A stretch of 64,000 bases of DNA from a virus. Below, in pieces: positions 47,645 through 57,795 of this stretch (position 1 is its first letter; each line of letters starts with the position of its first letter). Location of the stretch: positions 48,795 through 112,794 of IMG/VR virus record IMGVR_UViG_3300003177_000010; one strand, 5' to 3'. Below the pieces are notes generated by a model, which saw only the letters and a program-made list of their open reading frames with translations, ran no database searches and was not told where the DNA came from. A program made the translations under genes and the position numbers.

Positions 47645-48061
47645 TTATCCAAATACTTCTTTTAACTTAAAAGATATAGAGTAGTAACTAGCTAACAAGT
47701 TACTACCCGTGCTTTCGACATGTGATACAGACAAACCACCAGCAAAACGTACAGTAACGTTACCAGTCTCTCCTATATGTGATAAGTCTAAGGTAAAAGA
47801 TTCAAAATCTCCATTTCTGTTATTATAAAAAGTTTCAATAGCATTTTTCTGTAGCCCCGTAGCATTAGTGTAAGTTAAAGTATAGTCTCTCACGGGTCTT
47901 CTAGATCTAAGCCTTCTTTTTTCATATCCAGCATCTGTACTAAATACTATAGTAGAAAAAGACTTAGTATAGCTATGGCCTTTATCTGGCGTGTAATCCG
48001 CCATAGAAGAGAAAGAATCTGTAGAGAATATTCCTATGGCATCTGAAGGGTAATAAGCCAT
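47645..48061 (-). CDS. Minor tail protein (lambda M-like)
   Basis: This 138-residue protein has YEKRRLRSRRPVRDYTLTYTN (about 48-68) and NRNGDFESFTLDLSH, the RxRRP...LTY and G-x-F-x-F patterns of M/DUF2460-type tail proteins. It follows the tape measure and precedes the L-like gene, as in lambda. Its start overlaps the tape-measure stop (TAATG). Confidence 0.72.
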   Translation of the reverse strand: MAYYPSDAIGIFSTDSFSSMADYTPDKGHSYTKSFSTIVFSTDAGYEKRRLRSRRPVRDYTLTYTNATGLQKNAIETFYNNRNGDFESFTLDLSHIGETGNVTVRFAGGLSVSHVESTGSNLLASYYSISFKLKEVFG

Positions 48062-51000
48062 TAAACTACTGCCCCTCGTATAGATTGCTTAATAGGACCA
48101 TTATTAGCTATATCTTTTGTTACTATATCTATAATCCACTTCTTACCATCAAACTTAGGAGCAGAAGCAGTAGCCTCTTGAGGAGTACCATTATTAACTA
48201 CATTAACTTGTACGTTACCGTGGCTACTTATATTACCAGTAGCATTTAGTTCTTGCAAAGCAGGGGCGCCTAAAGCTTTAGCTATAGGCTTACGCAGCAT
48301 AAATTCCCCGGGTTCTGCTAATAAAGGTATTCTATCTCTTACGGCACCGCCGCCAGCAAATTTCTGAATAACTCCTCCAGAAGCTTTTTTACCTATACCA
48401 AATAGACTTCCTATAAATTTACCTATGAAACTCAGTATTCCACCTCCTCCGGTACTTTTACCACCGAATAAACCTCCTATACCTTTGAATAAGTTTGCAA
48501 AAAATCCCTCTTTACCGAATACTTTTGCAAAGAATTTACCTATAGAACTATCTTTACCTATTAGGCTTTCAAGAAGTGTTTTATCACCTTTAGCTCTTTT
48601 ACCAAATAAGTTAAAAGGGCCAGTATTTTCTGCACTAGTCACAGGGACCGCACCATTAACTAGGGTCACACTATCAATACCTCTTTTTACCCCAAATAAT
48701 TTACCTACAGAATTAGTAAGAAATTTAGCTGTAGGGTCTGCAATAGTTGACTTAAAGAAATCTTGTTGAATTGTTTTAAATAAGTTACTCATTATTGACC
48801 TAAAGTCTCCTTGCCCATAGAATATAAGGTCATTTAGACCCATAAGAGCGGAGTTAAAAGCTCCTTCTATATTATCAAATAAGCTTTTAACTTTTTTCAT
48901 AGCGCTAGATAAACCTGTAGAACCTCCAGACCCTCCAGAACCTCCTAAGGTATCAGCAAGAGCAGCAGTACTATTAGCTGCTGAATCTTGTATCTCCTGC
49001 AGCTTAAGTTCAAGCCTAGCTCTTTTTTCTACTCTAGCTCTATAAGTATCAGCACTACCAGTTATAGTACCATTAATTTGCTCTTGTATGTTAGCAATTT
49101 TAGTAGCAGCATTCTCATTAATTGCTGTTATTTGAGCATTTATTGAGTTAGCCTGAGCTGTTCTACTTGCGTCTAAAGCAGTAGTGGCTGATGCACCAGC
49201 AGTAGCTACTTGAGTTGATATACTAGTAGGAGTAACTTTACTTATATTACCTTTTAACCTAGGGTCTGCATCTATGTAGCTCTGTAGTACATTACCTAAA
49301 TCTTTAACACTCTTACTAAAACCATCCACTCCCTTAGCAAAAGAAGTATACCCTTTAATTTGTTCCTCAACTATACTAGCAGCTATTCTATTATTAGCCT
49401 CATCAGCTCTAATCTTAGCGATGTCTAATGCTTTTTTAGCCCTAATAATAGCTATCTCATGCTCTTTCTTAACTACTTCGGCTAACCCTCTTGCTGCTAT
49501 ATTTTTAGATTCAGCGTCAAATATAGCTAACTGAGCATCAATAAATGTTTTCTTACTATTAGCATCAGTAGCTATAAGTTCTTTTTGTGCTGCAATAGTA
49601 TCATGATTTTGAGAGTTCATAGCACTAACTACTATGTTACTATAATCTTCTGCCGCTGCTCTAACACTAGGGTTGCTTATTCCTATAGTTAGTGAAGATA
49701 TCTCATTAGCTATAGCGGACTGTCTATTAGCTACAACTGAAGGATCTAGTTTTTTATTCTTAGCTAAGTCTATTGATGCCTGTGCCTCTTGTCTTATTAA
49801 ATCTACACGTTGCTGATCCGTAGAAAGTCTAGAAGTAGCTAAATCATTAGTAGCCTGCATATGCGTTAGGTTATTAGCACTTATAGTTTCTAACTTAGCG
49901 TAGTAGTTAGTTAAATTTTCTAAAGAATGGGCTTGTTTTTGAAGTGCAAGTTGTTGCTCTAGCTGTCTAGTGTGTTCTTTTTCTTTAGTAACTATATCAT
50001 TTAAAGACTTAATACTATTAACTTGTCTACCTACAATAGCTTTCAACGTAGTTGAATACACCTCAGCTTCAGCAACTTGATTAGCATCTAGTTTTGCTCC
50101 TGCTTCCTGCAATCTAAAAGATTCTCTAGTTCTATCTAGTATAGACCCTAATAAAGATACTTGATTAGCTAAGATTTCTTTACTAGATTTAGCAAAATTG
50201 CCAGTACTATTAATTAGCCCTCCATACGTTAAAGTATTAAGTGCATTAATACCTTTAGAAAATGTTTTAGTAATATTTTTAAATATATTTTCAGTAGCAG
50301 CTAATTTATCTCTTAGTACTACATTAGCAGCTATAGACTCTCTTAAACTTGCTGTATAATTGTCATACACATGAACTGCTTGGTCAATAGACATACCGTT
50401 GTTAATATTAGCAGTAATGTTATCCTTAACTGCAGCTATCTGGTCTAATAACTGCGATCTAGCACCTGATATAGCCGCAGACATTTTATCTGCTGTAGTG
50501 GCACCAGCGTAATAAGCATCTGATAGTTTATTCATAGTGCTTGTGCCAACGAACCAAGCTTTAACAAGTTTCTTTTGACTCTCCGTTAGAGAGTCAAAAG
50601 AAATAACGCCATTGTCACCAACACGGGCAACTAATCCTCCAAATAATTCTAGCTGCTCATTAATTACTTGTAGCTTTTTAGAATCTAATACTGCAAATAC
50701 ATCTATTGCAGATAAACCAGTTAATGTAGCAATTCTACCTGCAAAACTATCAAGTACTCCTCCATATTTTTCAAGACTAGTTATATAAGTTTGTAATGCT
50801 AGGTTTTCTATCTTTAGATTAGCAGCTACTTCTAAATCCTTAGTTACATTTATACTATCCACATTATCTGCAATACGAGCTCTAGCAGCTTCAATTTGCA
50901 TAAGTACAGGGCTTACTGCTCTAGCTGCATTTAACATAGGAATAAAAGCCTGTCTAGCCTTAGCACCTGCTTCCTTAGCTAAATTACCTGCATTATCCCT

Positions 51001-51666
51001 AGTACTAAGATTATTACTATTAATAGCAGCACTGTAAGCTAAAGAATTAGCAGAAGCTGCAGCATCATTCATATCTAATGTTATTCTATTGATGTTCCTA
51101 GTTATAGCAGAATTAGCAGAAGAATTTACTGTAGCTACTACATTTTCGTACGTAGTAGCAAAACCAGCAATTTGGTCTTTATTAGCTCCTAACTCTTTTA
51201 GCTTACTATTTAGTAGTTCTACACCCCCAGCAGCAGCTGTCATAGCACCTAACATACCGTCTTTAAAATCTGCAGCAGCTTGAGAGGTATCAACAAAATG
51301 GTCTTTTATAGCCTTAAGAATATCAACCCCGAATATATCACCTATTAATTGTATAGCTCCAATAATAAAGAATAATTTATTCATTGCAGATGCAGCAAAA
51401 TTAGCAACTGTTTTTAGTTTATTTAACCCAGCTGCCATTAGTATAGACCCTTTTGTAAATAACTTAGCTTTAGTACCTGCTTGTTTTAATGCTTCTTCAT
51501 AAGTTTTTAACATAATAGTATTACTGTGTAAAGCAGCATCAAAAGAAGCCATTCTATCTGCAGGTATTTTACTCTTTAAACGTAACATTTCTTTTTCTAC
51601 TTCTTTAAGCTTAGCTATGTCAGTAGTCATTTGGGTTGTGCTAAATAGTTTAACATCACCATTCAT
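48061..51666 (-). CDS. Tape measure protein, C-terminal ORF
   Basis: This 1201-residue, coiled-coil-rich protein has Ala/Gln/Lys-rich helices through about residue 900. It ends in hydrophobic Gly-rich repeats and GGGAVRDRIPLLAEPGEFMLRKP, the typical tape-measure C-terminal signature. Together with the 342-residue ORF it sets tail length. It begins as ATGA on the stop of that ORF, so the two may be parts of one tape measure separated by a stop codon. Confidence 0.85.
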   Translation of the reverse strand: MNGDVKLFSTTQMTTDIAKLKEVEKEMLRLKSKIPADRMASFDAALHSNTIMLKTYEEALKQAGTKAKLFTKGSILMAAGLNKLKTVANFAASAMNKLFFIIGAIQLIGDIFGVDILKAIKDHFVDTSQAAADFKDGMLGAMTAAAGGVELLNSKLKELGANKDQIAGFATTYENVVATVNSSANSAITRNINRITLDMNDAAASANSLAYSAAINSNNLSTRDNAGNLAKEAGAKARQAFIPMLNAARAVSPVLMQIEAARARIADNVDSINVTKDLEVAANLKIENLALQTYITSLEKYGGVLDSFAGRIATLTGLSAIDVFAVLDSKKLQVINEQLELFGGLVARVGDNGVISFDSLTESQKKLVKAWFVGTSTMNKLSDAYYAGATTADKMSAAISGARSQLLDQIAAVKDNITANINNGMSIDQAVHVYDNYTASLRESIAANVVLRDKLAATENIFKNITKTFSKGINALNTLTYGGLINSTGNFAKSSKEILANQVSLLGSILDRTRESFRLQEAGAKLDANQVAEAEVYSTTLKAIVGRQVNSIKSLNDIVTKEKEHTRQLEQQLALQKQAHSLENLTNYYAKLETISANNLTHMQATNDLATSRLSTDQQRVDLIRQEAQASIDLAKNKKLDPSVVANRQSAIANEISSLTIGISNPSVRAAAEDYSNIVVSAMNSQNHDTIAAQKELIATDANSKKTFIDAQLAIFDAESKNIAARGLAEVVKKEHEIAIIRAKKALDIAKIRADEANNRIAASIVEEQIKGYTSFAKGVDGFSKSVKDLGNVLQSYIDADPRLKGNISKVTPTSISTQVATAGASATTALDASRTAQANSINAQITAINENAATKIANIQEQINGTITGSADTYRARVEKRARLELKLQEIQDSAANSTAALADTLGGSGGSGGSTGLSSAMKKVKSLFDNIEGAFNSALMGLNDLIFYGQGDFRSIMSNLFKTIQQDFFKSTIADPTAKFLTNSVGKLFGVKRGIDSVTLVNGAVPVTSAENTGPFNLFGKRAKGDKTLLESLIGKDSSIGKFFAKVFGKEGFFANLFKGIGGLFGGKSTGGGGILSFIGKFIGSLFGIGKKASGGVIQKFAGGGAVRDRIPLLAEPGEFMLRKPIAKALGAPALQELNATGNISSHGNVQVNVVNNGTPQEATASAPKFDGKKWIIDIVTKDIANNGPIKQSIRGAVV

Positions 51667-52691
51667 AATTTACCATCATACTTTTTACTAATATCTTTTT
51701 TTAGCTTTACGACTCCTTTGCTAATAACATCAAAGCTACCTTTAGAAGCAGCTGCATTATTAGCTACACTTTCTGTCCATTTTATACCTGAGTCTATCAT
51801 ACTACTAAAACTATGTCCAATCATTTTAGTAGCTTTATTGAATACTACAGCCCCTAAAATACCAAAAGCTAATAATGCGTTACCCGCATCATTAGTTATG
51901 AAGTCTACAAAAGGAGCTATATAGTTAGCTAATACTTGACCAAAACCACTAGCCATATTTGCGATTTCAGTAGCTAGCTGTTGTAAAGATTTTTGAGCAG
52001 ATGCTGAAGATACATTAATAGAGCTAAATTTTCTGTCACCTTCTGCAATAGTCGCGTTAACAAAAGCTTGTCTACGTTCAAATGTAGAAAGAGAATTAAC
52101 ATTTACACCTAACTGCCTAGCATATGCCTTAGCTGCAGGCTGTATTCTAACAAATATACCTAATTCATCTAATAGTTCCGGTTCTAGTTTAGCAGTACCA
52201 CGTATAACACGTTGCATAGCATCAGTAAGGTTCCTACCTAAAGCCCTAGAAGCTCTCATAGCAACTCTAGTAACCCCTTCTAGCTGTTTAGTATTAAAAC
52301 CAGCAGATAAAGCAATGTTAGCGTTCTGTGCTGCCTCGGCTAAAGTAAGTTGTCCTTGTGTAATATCTTTAATAACTGCTAGTATAGCAGGGCCACTTTG
52401 CCCTACCTCAGCAGCCAAGGCGTTTGTACCTCTTACAATAGTTTCATTCTGTGCCGCTTTATTAAGAGCAGTAAAGGCGGCAGTAACAGCAAAAATAGTC
52501 GCAGCCGCACCGGCATAAGCGCCGACTAAGCCGCCTAAGCCAGATGCTTGAGCAGAAAAAGATCTACCAGCATTAGAAGATTCGTTAGCAAGTCTAGTCT
52601 GTTTCTTACTAATCTCTTCGGTATCGCTTTTAACTTTACTAGCGCCTTTTGACGTGAATAAAATTTCTACTATGTTACTAATTGTGCTCAT
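51663..52691 (-). CDS. Tape measure protein, N-terminal ORF
   Basis: This 342-residue protein has a coiled-coil start (SKKQTRLANES), a hydrophobic Ala/Gly-rich stretch near 52-75 (GGLVGAYAGAAATIFAVTAA), and the ITQGQLTLAEAAQNANIALSAGF segment common to N-terminal parts of tape-measure proteins. Its start lies within the 3' end of the G-T chaperone reading frame, as in lambda. Its stop overlaps the next ATG (ATGA). Confidence 0.82.
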   Translation of the reverse strand: MSTISNIVEILFTSKGASKVKSDTEEISKKQTRLANESSNAGRSFSAQASGLGGLVGAYAGAAATIFAVTAAFTALNKAAQNETIVRGTNALAAEVGQSGPAILAVIKDITQGQLTLAEAAQNANIALSAGFNTKQLEGVTRVAMRASRALGRNLTDAMQRVIRGTAKLEPELLDELGIFVRIQPAAKAYARQLGVNVNSLSTFERRQAFVNATIAEGDRKFSSINVSSASAQKSLQQLATEIANMASGFGQVLANYIAPFVDFITNDAGNALLAFGILGAVVFNKATKMIGHSFSSMIDSGIKWTESVANNAAASKGSFDVISKGVVKLKKDISKKYDGKL

Positions 52692-53036: not shown

Positions 53037-53468
53037 TTAGTTTTTTACTTCTTCCGCATCCTTAAGTGTAGAAAACTCTTCATAATCATTCATAGCGTCG
53101 GTTACGAATTGATCAAATATTGAAGAATTCTTCAATAGGTCTAAAGCATCTTCTTCAGAAAAAGGTATCTCTTCATCCGCATTTAGATTAGATATATCAG
53201 CAGGCATTAGCTTAGGTAAGGTACCTATAGTAAGCCCTCTCCAATTAATTATAGCTTTTTTTGCGTAGTTACTTAAGAATTTATCAGTATCTACTTCTTC
53301 CTCTCTTTGCCTAGTCTTTTTACTAAACTTGTACTCTAAACTAGCTTTTTGGATTTTCTGTAGATGTTCTCTAGTTAGAAATTGTAATTCTACTTCAAAA
53401 CCGTCAGTGTCTGGAACTTCCATCCAGCTTGTTGCGTTATTTGCAACTGCGTTACTTATAATACCCAT
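53037..53468 (-). CDS. Tail assembly chaperone G-like
   Basis: This protein has 143 residues from the ATG at 53468, chosen because ATGAGGAAT gives a strong ribosome site 5 bases upstream. The ATG at 53501 lies inside an inverted-repeat arm. GFEVELQFLTREHLQKIQKASL and FLSNYAKKAIINWRGL match tail assembly chaperones. It binds the tape measure during tail assembly. The last sense codons contain A-AAA-AAC, followed at once by TAA, for the -1 shift to the T frame. Confidence 0.82.
   Translation of the reverse strand: MGIISNAVANNATSWMEVPDTDGFEVELQFLTREHLQKIQKASLEYKFSKKTRQREEEVDTDKFLSNYAKKAIINWRGLTIGTLPKLMPADISNLNADEEIPFSEEDALDLLKNSSIFDQFVTDAMNDYEEFSTLKDAEEVKN
53040..53046 (-). promoter_or_regulatory. 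Programmed -1 frameshift site A-AAA-AAC
   Basis: The last two zero-frame codons are AAA AAC, preceded by GTA, giving the canonical X-XXY-YYZ heptamer just before TAA. After slipping, the frame reads CTA ACA AAA TAC and continues open into the 52678-53001 frame. The genes are the G/T chaperone pair, where such shifts are known in lambda. Confidence 0.9.
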
Positions 53469-53485
53469 GTATTCCTCATAAAAAT

Positions 53486-53578
53486 GAACGCCCATTAACA
53501 TATCTGCTTTTCTAAGGTGAGGGGAGACCTAGAATTGCAAGTTAACGGGCGTTCTCTGTTAAAATGTTGTCCCCCCTC
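53486..53578 (-). ncRNA. Interleaved RNA stems (pseudoknot or switch) before the chaperone gene
   Basis: On the minus-strand RNA, stem 1 pairs GAGGGGGGAC (53578-53569) with GTCTCCCCTC (53528-53519), 10 bp with one G-U. Stem 2 pairs GAACGCCCGTTAAC (53554-53541) with GTTAATGGGCGTTC (53499-53486), 14 bp with one G-U. The arms alternate 1a-2a-1b-2b, an H-type pseudoknot order or two exclusive folds. It spans the gap between the tail-tube stop and the chaperone ribosome site. Confidence 0.65.
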
Positions 53579-53587
53579 AGAAACTTA

Positions 53588-54856
53588 TTACTTAGCGGCT
53601 ACAATTGTAACCTCACCGCCTGAGCCACAGGTTGCTCCAGGCTCTTGGCCTATAAAGTCAACTGTGACAGCTACCACATCACTAATATCTAGTTTAGGAA
53701 AACTAAATTGACAAGCATCTAATTGAAATGCTACATAAGGGGCTGTAGCGCCCCCAATAATAAGATTAGCATTAGAAGTACTTGCAGAGCTAGTCCTACC
53801 GTCATTGGCTATATTTCTTAAGAATTGAGCAGATTGACCGTTACCAGCTCTAAGGTACATAGTTGCAGAGCCGGATACTGCTCTAGTACCTGTAAATTGT
53901 CCTATAGGCTCATTTAGGTTACTTAACTCCTCAGGAGTTAAGTAACTTATATTATTATTATAGTCGAAGGTTAATGCCGTAACGGGGAATGTATAAGAAA
54001 CGTCGGCACCTCCTGCAGAAGGAGTGTGATGAAACTCAATAGCACTTAGTCTATTTTTAATAAAGGAATTAGTAGCTATACTACCAGCTACATTCATCTG
54101 ATTATACGGATGGTAGGCAGAAGAAGCTGATAACTCACTCACATTTGCATTAGCTAGTACAGTAGCTCCACTATTTAATATACCACCAAATACTGATACA
54201 GCATTATCTCTAGGGGCACCGGTAAGCTCTCTTAAGGTAGTACCAAAACCTGTCCATGTTACCGTAGAAATAGCGTCAATACCTGCGTCTACAGTAGCTT
54301 GGTTAACCGTAGCATTAGCTACTTGATAGAATATATTATCTAATTTTAAGTATAAATGATTTTCAGTAGCAGTTGAGAAATTAGCTCTAGTCGAGTGAGA
54401 ACCAGCTCCAGCAGCCACATTTGTAGTCTGCAACTTACCTCCTGTAACCCATACAGACTGGTCCGACGTGCCATCAGATACTCTAGTATTAGATACTAAC
54501 GACTGCCATAAGAACCAGTCAGCAGTAGGTTTAACATTACCACTAGCAGAAGTACCTGTAGTCGACCCTCCAGCAGCTGCACCAGTCTGAACTCCTGTAG
54601 GTCTTATATATGTTTGAAGGTTCCAATCCACTGGATCTATAGAAGTGTTGAAACGTTGTTGCGACCTATCAGGGGATAAGCCTGACTCTAAGGTAGTTAT
54701 ATCTTGTGTAGCTGCAGAAGAAGTGGCTGCAAAACCACTTAGAGCTTCTATCTTCCAAGTATTTTGTGGGGTCATAGCAGTAACAGCAGCGCCATTAACT
54801 AAATCAACTGTTGAGAAAAATATCTCGGAATTTCTTTGTAAATTAATACATGACAT
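53588..54856 (-). CDS. Major tail tube protein
   Basis: This 422-residue beta-rich protein begins SCINLQRNSEIFFSTVD and ends GSGGEVTIVAAK, with FQLDACQFSFPKLDISDVVAVTVDF near the C terminus, a strand pattern found in siphovirus tube proteins. It stands between the tail terminator and chaperone genes, the place of lambda V. The large insert (about 80-260) may project from the tube surface. A strong GGAG ribosome site precedes the ATG. Confidence 0.78.
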   Translation of the reverse strand: MSCINLQRNSEIFFSTVDLVNGAAVTAMTPQNTWKIEALSGFAATSSAATQDITTLESGLSPDRSQQRFNTSIDPVDWNLQTYIRPTGVQTGAAAGGSTTGTSASGNVKPTADWFLWQSLVSNTRVSDGTSDQSVWVTGGKLQTTNVAAGAGSHSTRANFSTATENHLYLKLDNIFYQVANATVNQATVDAGIDAISTVTWTGFGTTLRELTGAPRDNAVSVFGGILNSGATVLANANVSELSASSAYHPYNQMNVAGSIATNSFIKNRLSAIEFHHTPSAGGADVSYTFPVTALTFDYNNNISYLTPEELSNLNEPIGQFTGTRAVSGSATMYLRAGNGQSAQFLRNIANDGRTSSASTSNANLIIGGATAPYVAFQLDACQFSFPKLDISDVVAVTVDFIGQEPGATCGSGGEVTIVAAK

Positions 54857-55324: not shown

Positions 55325-56521
55325 TTATACTCTTACTATATTAAACTTACGTGTATACAGAGAGGTAACTACTTCTCTAATAGAGTTACTAACTTGAGTT
55401 TCCGGGTCGTAACCATATTTTATATTAGCATCATATAAAGGCATGTAAGTAAAACGTATTAAACTATTACGATAGTTTGGGTATACTGTTATACTACTCC
55501 TAAATCTACCGCTTCTTTCTGTAAACCATGGTGGGGTAGCTTTACCACTTTTTTTCATAGTTTTATCTAACCTTTTCTGTACTAATGCAGTAAGCTGAGC
55601 GCCTGAAATAAATGTCTGTCTATTATTCTTTTTGGTAACTTTAGTAGAAATCTTACCTTGCTTAGGCTTTATAATCTTAGTACTATAATTTATAGGACGT
55701 TTTTCAAATTCATTAGCTATTCCTATAACAGCAGATAAAAAATCATAGGTATGTTGAGTAGATCTGCCCTTAGTAAACCTAACTAAAGCATCATTTATAA
55801 ATCTACTAGAAATATTAGTACTTAGTGCTTTATGGAATTTTATAGTAGTACTTGTTATACTAGCTATAACTTTAGCGTAACCAGCGTCACTTAAAGAGTA
55901 GTATAAAGTTATTCCTGATTTAGTAGGTTTAGCTGTTATACTTAAGTACTCTTCTGTAACTATATTACTAGAGTTTAATAGTCTAGTAACTAAGGACCCT
56001 AGTGCTTTATCTCCTATATTACTTTTATCTAAGTAATTCTTATTAAATAAATTAGAAAATTTTTGTGATATTTGTTTAGTTACTATTTTTTTTATTTCAT
56101 TATTACTGTTAATATAATTAATAAGCTCTACGTTAGATAACTTGTCTACTCTAGTATTCTTATCGAAGGTAAAACCATTTTTATTTTGTGTAGCAGCTAT
56201 ATTATTAGCTTTATTAAATGAAACACTATCTGAATTACTTAAAGAAATAGGAGAAAAATATGTTTTTTTTACTTTACTTAATGTATCAAATATATCCTTG
56301 GTGTTAACATCATCAGAAAAACTAGATGCGCTAGGGGCAGTAAAAGGACTTTCTGCAGCTATAAAATCAGAAAAATACCTTAATACTAAGCTTCTTGCCT
56401 TTTTGTTACCTCTAGAAGCTTTAATTAACGCTTGTTTATTTTTGCTAACAAATAGTTCTACAGGTAGCCCGTCAATAGTTATCTTAGTATCTACCAGACT
56501 AATATGATTATTTTTTGTCAT
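55325..56521 (-). CDS. Neck/tail completion protein (Z-like)
   Basis: The C-terminal part has FISGAQLTALVQKRLDKTM, PWFTERSGRFRSSI and PLYDANIKYGYDPETQ, a pattern of Z/HK97 gp10-like completion proteins (RTGRFxxSV). The 398 residues are longer than usual, with a basic helical N-terminal extension (about 1-270) I do not recognise. The gene abuts the U-like gene and overlaps the connector gene by one base. Confidence 0.6.
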   Translation of the reverse strand: MTKNNHISLVDTKITIDGLPVELFVSKNKQALIKASRGNKKARSLVLRYFSDFIAAESPFTAPSASSFSDDVNTKDIFDTLSKVKKTYFSPISLSNSDSVSFNKANNIAATQNKNGFTFDKNTRVDKLSNVELINYINSNNEIKKIVTKQISQKFSNLFNKNYLDKSNIGDKALGSLVTRLLNSSNIVTEEYLSITAKPTKSGITLYYSLSDAGYAKVIASITSTTIKFHKALSTNISSRFINDALVRFTKGRSTQHTYDFLSAVIGIANEFEKRPINYSTKIIKPKQGKISTKVTKKNNRQTFISGAQLTALVQKRLDKTMKKSGKATPPWFTERSGRFRSSITVYPNYRNSLIRFTYMPLYDANIKYGYDPETQVSNSIREVVTSLYTRKFNIVRV

Positions 56522-57795
56522 TACATTATAGTTCTATACATATCTAGTACTCTTCTTACATGGGGAGGGAAGTTGGAAGATAAGCTGTAAGATGCGCCTT
56601 TTTCTCCACTAAAGGTGAACCCCTTTGAATTCTGCGTCTGCTTATATAATATCTTTATATAGTCAAGAGTAGCTAATTTAATATCATAAGGTACTTCATT
56701 AATTTCATACCCAGCTCTATACGATATCTTTACACCAGAACTATAGTTATTAAACGCAGTAGTAGGTAACAATGATAACGTTGGATTACCGTAATTTTTA
56801 CTTATTCTGCCTGATCCACGAGAAAAGGTAAAATCACTAGGAGTGCTATGACAGTCCTTAAATGAGTCATCAAAGTGAAATAATACTGCAGTGTCGCTAT
56901 CAGGCCTAAATCTGTGAGTAGCTGGTACAAAGTCATCTGTGTATCTTGCTATAGTAGATACTCTTAACTCATCTAAGTATCCTACTAACCCTTCGCCTAT
57001 TATTACGTTTGATGTAAAAGTTAAGTTACTTTCAGTAAAAGAAGCATTTGCTATAGTGTTACCATTATAATGTAAGTAAATTTTCTCATCATCTAGCTTC
57101 CTACTTACTGCTATATGTGCCCATTTTCTGCTACTAAATTGTTGAGACTCTACTAAGCTATTAGCACCTTGTATAGTAGTGGTAACTCCATTAACATTAC
57201 TAGTTAAGGCGATACCGTACTGGTTAGCAAGTCCTAGTGATAGATAGTTATTATTATCCGTATTTATACTAAATAAAGTATTATCACTAAGGGTGTTATT
57301 ATCAATACGTACATAGGCTTCTATAGTAAAGTCTGACTCTTCAAATTTTAGAGAGTCAGGAACAGAATTAGTATATAGTAGGTCTGAGCTAGTAAATTTA
57401 ACACTAGTATCTCCTGTTTTTTTGATAGTAGAGTATTGTGGGTCACCTAAGCTATCTAGTAGTACTGCAGGAGAAGTATTAGTAATAGGCAGTCCTAGTG
57501 TGTCAGGGTCTGCTAGTCTATTATAAGAAGTACCGTTATACTCTTCTACCTGGTACACGTTACTTAAAGGTAATCTACTAGTATATACGTATGAAGAACC
57601 CCCATCTAATACTTCAATGTAGTCATTAGCTAGAACCTCTTGGCCAATATAATGCTCGACAACTCCTGTAGCGTAGTGTATAATGTTAGATAGCCTAGCA
57701 TCATAAGTATTACTAGAGATAGCTAAATAATCAGTTACTGTAGCTAAGTCTATAAATGTATACTTTCCCAAGTTTTCTTCAAATTTATTCGCCAT
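56521..57795 (-). CDS. Head-tail connector with LamG-like insert
   Basis: Residues 1-95 (LATVTDYLAISSNTYDARL, IIHYATGVVEHYIG) and about 330-424 (GVKISYRAGYEINEVPYDIK, ATLDYIKILYKQ) match HK97 gp6-type connectors. Between them, about 120-320, lies a concanavalin/LamG-like jelly roll: FTIEAYVRIDN, LFSINTDNNNYLSLGL, KWAHIAVSRK, YLHYNGN, GYLDELRVSTIARY and VLFHFDDS. Such domains bind carbohydrate and would be displayed at the neck. The arrangement is unusual for a connector. Position follows the capsid gene. Confidence 0.75.
   Translation of the reverse strand: MANKFEENLGKYTFIDLATVTDYLAISSNTYDARLSNIIHYATGVVEHYIGQEVLANDYIEVLDGGSSYVYTSRLPLSNVYQVEEYNGTSYNRLADPDTLGLPITNTSPAVLLDSLGDPQYSTIKKTGDTSVKFTSSDLLYTNSVPDSLKFEESDFTIEAYVRIDNNTLSDNTLFSINTDNNNYLSLGLANQYGIALTSNVNGVTTTIQGANSLVESQQFSSRKWAHIAVSRKLDDEKIYLHYNGNTIANASFTESNLTFTSNVIIGEGLVGYLDELRVSTIARYTDDFVPATHRFRPDSDTAVLFHFDDSFKDCHSTPSDFTFSRGSGRISKNYGNPTLSLLPTTAFNNYSSGVKISYRAGYEINEVPYDIKLATLDYIKILYKQTQNSKGFTFSGEKGASYSLSSNFPPHVRRVLDMYRTIM

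Follow-up and report, generated by a model that had tools for sequence, protein, structure and literature searches.

Among the described RNA elements, the guanidine-II riboswitch (mini-ykkC) consists of a pair of hairpins with a flexible linker between them; an intramolecular loop-loop kiss has been proposed, and in the resulting model the kiss frees the Shine-Dalgarno sequence from an anti-Shine-Dalgarno (PMC7544219). In phages, a pseudoknotted message upstream of the ribosome-binding site has been described as the operator of gene 32 in T4 and RB69, where it controls translation (PMC535899). For the activator pseudoknots of IncI-alpha repZ and IncL/M repA, PMC10724649 refers to Asano and Mizobuchi (1998). 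Here we describe a structured RNA element between the tail-tube and tail-assembly-chaperone genes of an uncultured T5-like phage, a junction where two proteins are required in very different quantities. Discussions of tail chaperone control have usually been confined to the G/GT frameshift. The phages that carry the element have this frameshift as well, and a structured leader would add a second layer of control.

The window (the whole stretch of 64,000 nucleotides analysed here, part of a 112,794-base virus record) carries on its minus strand the gene order head-protease/capsid fusion, adaptor, tail terminator, tail tube, chaperone G, chaperone T and tape measure. The tail tube (major tail protein) gene (53588..54856, minus strand; PHROG 3575, E=4e-46) ends with a UAA stop codon at 53590-53588, and every isolated phage found to encode a relative of it is T5-like (Demerecviridae), at less than 60% identity, with 25.7-28.8% for the best among the matches listed. 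The tail assembly chaperone G (143 aa; 53037..53468, minus strand; PHROG 313, E=2e-10; T5.143 homologue, E=3e-13) has been annotated as an ORF beginning at 53501, while its true start is at 53468, with UGAGGA ahead of it. The AUG at 53468-53466 is regarded as the real start because it yields a product of 143 aa, the length found in 71/71 relatives. The original prediction had pointed to an alternative ATG covered by the RNA structure; ATGs do occur at 53501 and 53495, in or touching a stem, but the relatives' chaperones, all of 143 aa, give them no support as starts.

Directly 5' of the chaperone G stop, the slippery heptamer A AAA AAC (53046-53040, minus strand) is found at an identical position in 71/71 relatives, followed on its 3' side by a hairpin UACCUCC/GGAGGUA (53031-53001, minus strand), and together these form a classical -1 frameshift making GT. 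In the relatives inspected the T frame is open across the G/T junction, in some of them without a start codon there; an independent hairpin sequestering the Shine-Dalgarno of the T cistron (53031-53001) was consequently dropped, as the relatives show T to be read by -1 frameshifting. Further downstream, the tape-measure region (48061-52691, minus strand) consists of two ORFs with a 4-bp overlap, of which 51663-52691 (342 aa) matches a PHROG tape measure and 48061-51666 (1201 aa) matches no PHROG. The tail-tube coding sequence contains a 16-bp inverted repeat with a 3-nt loop (53915-53949); a T-rich stretch follows it on the plus strand, which gives it the appearance of an antisense terminator-like site. 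The head-tail adaptor (56521-57795, minus strand) carries an extra segment of ~200 aa with matches to parts of other virion structural and baseplate proteins from phages.

The message strand at the element is the minus strand, on which a 10-bp stem pairs 53578-53569 (GAGGGGGGAC) with 53528-53519 (GUCUCCCCUC), and a 14-bp stem, P2, pairs 53554-53541 (GAACGCCCGUUAAC) with 53499-53486 (GUUAAUGGGCGUUC), each with one G-U. The G/C-rich 10-bp stem, the 14-bp stem, their arm order 1a-2a-1b-2b and their single G-U pairs had been predicted and are all confirmed in the sequence, as is the gap to the chaperone start, the last stem base lying 17 nt upstream of the AUG. Folding of 122 nt has given z = -3.67, with 0/200 shuffles folding as well. 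The topology is interleaved as claimed, but two hairpins with kissing loops fit better than the H-type pseudoknot that had been suggested, since the stem of hairpin A and the helices P3 and P4, overlooked before, exist beside the two noted stems. A plain two-stem pseudoknot has been rejected because these helices are conserved too, and because the arms 1a and 1b are located in hairpin loops, that of hairpin A and the apical one of hairpin B, respectively.

Hairpin A (53569..53584, minus strand), recovered by RNAalifold unprompted and supported against the phylogenetic null, has a stem P0 of 53584-53581 with 53572-53569 plus a closing C53580-G53573, and its loop is the kissing sequence UGAGGG (1a, 53574..53579), which shows zero substitutions in 72 aligned rows; among these rows P0 is 4-8 pairs long. 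The stem of hairpin A is in competition with the outer four pairs of the 10-bp stem (53572-53569). A linker of 11-21 nt with a conserved CAG at its end (72-row alignment) leads to hairpin B (53486..53554, minus strand), which is supported by compensatory double changes and by RNAalifold and is built from three helices. Above P2 (13-14 pairs in the consensus) follows P3, UUGC/GCAG in the window (53540-53537/53507-53504) and UUGC/GCAR in the consensus, with a 3' bulge that is AUAU in the window (53503-53500) and AUAU, AUUC or AUUAA in the consensus. A purine-rich symmetric internal loop separates P3 from P4, which reads UUC.AGG/CCU..GAA in the window (53534-53532/53512-53510 and 53530-53528/53517-53515) and AAGG/CCUU above UUC/GAA in the consensus. 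The apical loop ends in the kissing sequence CCCUCA (1b, 53518..53523, minus strand), extended by the pyrimidines 53527-53524, and the pairing between the loops involves six invariant positions and up to three co-varying ones. The complementary UGAGGG/CCCUCA has been found in all 72 rows, with one deleted A in loop B of a single sequence (L076). From comparison of the aligned sequences, the fold is established as a short hairpin A and a long hairpin B whose loops are predicted to kiss.

The evidence for this fold has been obtained from an anchored alignment of 72 distinct rows and a null model that keeps the tree and the per-column substitution number (300 simulations); an R-scape-like all-against-all test was underpowered (1/42 pairs significant), so that a helix-level branch test was used. 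For P2, 32 compensatory paired double changes have been counted on single tree branches, compared with 2.6 expected and a null maximum of 7 over the 300 simulations, and 99.8% of its cells are paired against 85% under the phylogenetic null, while slid versions of P2, as control, have shown no excess. Covariation had been named by the original prediction as the decisive check, and the compensatory changes in related phages support the 14-bp stem decisively. For the G/C stem the outcome is divided: the three flanking pairs of the kissing extension co-vary (93% paired vs 68%; 4 double changes vs 0.49, 0/300), whereas the six core pairs never vary and consequently provide no covariation evidence of their own. 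Free variation in P2 beside zero substitutions in the kissing core suggests that the core is constrained by more than pairing. P0 is paired in 86% of cells versus 69% under the phylogenetic null (0/300), P4 shows 4 double changes versus 0.6 expected (1/300), and P3 is almost without change, apart from one exchange of C-G to U-A (L018, L095). Over the whole structure, 95% of cells are paired, compared with 43-50% when it is slid, and RNAalifold, applied unprompted to 25 sequences, has recovered hairpin A, P2, P3 and the top of P4. As G-U cells far outnumber A-C cells in P2 (60 vs 2), the selected molecule is the message-strand RNA.

Relatives have been gathered by tail-tube scans and a sequence-pattern scan, which yielded several hundred contigs from which duplicates were then removed, leaving 89 distinct tail-tube/chaperone junctions with tail-tube identities from about 59% up. 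The element has been detected at 89/89 of these clade junctions, 88 by pattern and one (L381) by covariance model (76.6 bits), and as far as these sequences reach, the whole clade has it fixed at this position. All real pattern matches lie directly 3' of the tail-tube gene, with the exception of four at contig edges; matches elsewhere in viral contigs do not fold like the element and were dismissed as chance or tRNA genes, and covariance-model matches on the opposite strand (e.g., L347, E=0.04) as the palindromic image of the same element. The window's own genome contains a single copy. In six isolated T5-like phages (T5, JSF12, Slocum, VCPH, D254 and 234P7B; 24-29% identity) the tail tube and chaperone are homologous to those of the window, but the junction differs in that a second tail tube-like gene stands between them, the gaps are of a few nt and no element is present; a covariance-model search of the whole genomes of T5, JSF12, Slocum and VCPH has found nothing above chance. 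This second gene (T5.144) is missing at the window junction, tblastn has found no T5.144-like gene elsewhere in the window, and the RNA element occupies the new tail-tube/chaperone junction left without it. A blastn search of GenBank phages has given no match to the element, Rfam no match at the gathering score (only a chance mir-586 match, E=0.36), a tail-tube profile scan of GTDB genomes no relative, and a scan with the chaperone protein nothing. The statement that no element like it had been described thus stands, with no Rfam match and no copy in GenBank phages.

A further feature of the locus is the chaperone Shine-Dalgarno. It reads UGAGGA in the window (53473..53478, minus strand) and GAGGG(G) in most relatives, GAGGG being present in 73/80 elements and GAGGGG in 58/80, compared with 3/172 and 1/172, respectively, for other starts with a recognisable site on the same contigs; the tail-tube Shine-Dalgarno is AAGGAG in 37/37. 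The prevailing form of the chaperone Shine-Dalgarno repeats the sequence of loop A, which makes loop B complementary to the two of them. The window phage and three relatives (L008, L010, L106) have GAGGA, only a partial match to loop A, and L018, L095 and L152 have an AAGG Shine-Dalgarno with no complementarity to loop B. With no more than three changes of the GAGGG state over the tree, few independent events underlie the correlation. Duplex energies, which ignore loop geometry, are -16.9 kcal/mol for 1a:1b, -12.4 for Shine-Dalgarno:1b and -7.7 for Shine-Dalgarno:anti-Shine-Dalgarno; the nested minimum-free-energy fold of L061 pairs the Shine-Dalgarno with 1b, and outside L061-type sequences nested folding has not predicted this pairing. 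In L002, L004 and L013 the Shine-Dalgarno lies inside a small predicted hairpin (e.g., AUGA GGGGAAA UCAU), which is possibly a third loop able to meet loop B. The distance from P2 to the AUG is 17-27 nt (sd 2.2), and that from the tail-tube stop to loop A is 7-23 nt.

Because the element lies near the start (17-27 nt), the Shine-Dalgarno is specialised and the invariant loops are needless for a passive hairpin, we infer that the fold sets the level of chaperone initiation relative to that of the tail tube. We assign a probability of roughly 40% to the reading that it is a conserved cis-acting leader tuning chaperone translation, with loop B most likely a switchable anti-Shine-Dalgarno. Lowered chaperone output or protection of the tube message had originally been suggested as possible roles; the unusual Shine-Dalgarno favours control of chaperone initiation. 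In the proposed mechanism, loops A and B would kiss intramolecularly within the leader of the chaperone cistron, inside the tail-tube/chaperone message, a short way 5' of the Shine-Dalgarno. As long as loop A keeps loop B engaged, the ribosome-binding site of the chaperone would be free; opening of loop A, e.g., by ribosomes finishing the tail tube, would release loop B, which could then pair with the GAGGGG Shine-Dalgarno and reduce chaperone initiation. The least certain parts of this scheme are the switching of loop B from loop A to the Shine-Dalgarno and the coupling of this step to translation of the tail tube. The putative competition for the Shine-Dalgarno is not universal, being lost in the three AAGG sequences and weaker in the four with GAGGA, whereas the kiss is. 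Moreover, hairpin B is ~26 stacked pairs tall and the linker from P2 to the Shine-Dalgarno is about 5-12 nt, and loop B could therefore reach it only if the hairpin bends, for which the AUAU bulge is a candidate site, or if P2 opens in part. A more specific form, which we regard as tentative and rather doubtful, is a stoichiometry controller in which one anti-Shine-Dalgarno loop is shared by a decoy after the tail-tube stop and the real Shine-Dalgarno, and chaperone output would be set by the ribosomes travelling along the tail-tube cistron. The match between decoy and real site makes a clear mutational test possible in a plain reporter.

Other roles have to be weighed against control of chaperone initiation. 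The position of the element directly 3' of a highly expressed gene, its long, irregular hairpin with an asymmetric bulge, and the lack of any promoter or terminator found between the tail tube and chaperone genes would all suit a stability or processing element, which, as a barrier to 3'-5' exonucleases or a site of RNase III cleavage, would let the tail-tube message outlast or separate from the downstream cistrons. We consider this unlikely, since a barrier or an RNase III site needs no invariant loops, the match of the chaperone Shine-Dalgarno to loop A is left unexplained, and the six T5-like isolates express their tail tube without the element. Another reading is an operator, i.e., the recognition site of a translational repressor of phage or host origin, and such autogenous control is exemplified by T4 gp32 and the ribosomal proteins. 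The near-invariant loops, UGC/GCA, the GCARAU-type bulge and the CAG linker, together with a site just upstream of the ribosome-binding site, would fit a protein target, yet no candidate RNA-binding protein is tied to the element, and to our knowledge neither the chaperone nor the tail tube binds RNA, which makes this reading somewhat less probable again.

Explanations in which the fold serves geometry or transcription appear improbable. The short distances on both sides (7-23 nt from the stop to loop A, 17-27 nt from P2 to the AUG) would be compatible with a compact bridge, a spacer of ~120 nt folded to let ribosomes that have terminated on the tail tube reinitiate on the chaperone, although T5-like isolates manage with spacers of a few nt and a bridge requires neither invariant loops nor a special Shine-Dalgarno. 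Hardly better placed, and marginally the less probable of these two, is a leaky intrinsic terminator or attenuator in which P2 and a following U-rich stretch lower downstream transcription: the 8 nt after P2 average 4.7 U against a background of 2.3, but a run of at least five U occurs in only 13/80, the stem, with ~40 nt inside it, lacks the compactness of a terminator hairpin, no terminator was called at 53486-53590, and a U-rich leader 5' of the Shine-Dalgarno is also compatible with S1 binding. A self-cleaving ribozyme of HDV type, which shares the strand order (P1-P2-P3-P1-P4-P2) and in most sequences a CNRA-like CAGA or CAAA, is highly improbable, as CAUA replaces this motif in L061, L064, L067 and L071, a P1.1-type GG is absent, and the HDV-like P3 (CUUG/CAAG) and P4 have shown 0 and 1 double changes with pairing at the null level; the ribozyme was rejected because covariation supports the mutually exclusive nested P4 instead. 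A stimulator of -1 frameshifting was likewise discarded, an XXXYYYZ-like heptamer being found within 45 nt before loop A in only 11/80, and the tail tube frame being closed by stop codons before the element.

The leader proposed here is a strongly supported new RNA family, fixed in an uncultured T5-like phage clade of which the collections searched contain no isolate. With the guanidine-II riboswitch it shares two hairpins with a proposed loop-loop kiss and a flexible linker, the release of the Shine-Dalgarno being a model in both, but it has no tetraloops or guanidine site, its sequence is unrelated and without an Rfam match, one of its hairpins is long and built from three helices, and it stands upstream of a structural phage gene. 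The gene 32 operator resembles it as a pseudoknotted fold in a phage message upstream of a ribosome-binding site; that pseudoknot, however, is ~28 nt and bound by gp32, whereas the element is ~100 nt, consists of kissing hairpins, has no known protein and precedes a different gene. In the repZ and repA pseudoknots, translation is reportedly switched by a hairpin loop whose distant pairing partner lies near the Shine-Dalgarno, and the switch is coupled to an upstream reading frame. The distant loop pairing near a Shine-Dalgarno would be common to both, while repZ and repA are plasmid replication genes under antisense RNA control, and their architecture and sequence are unlike those of the element. 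Having no Rfam match, a different architecture and a different gene, the element is consequently a member of none of these systems, and by analogy its behaviour would most resemble the guanidine-II model and the pseudoknot operators of phages and plasmids.
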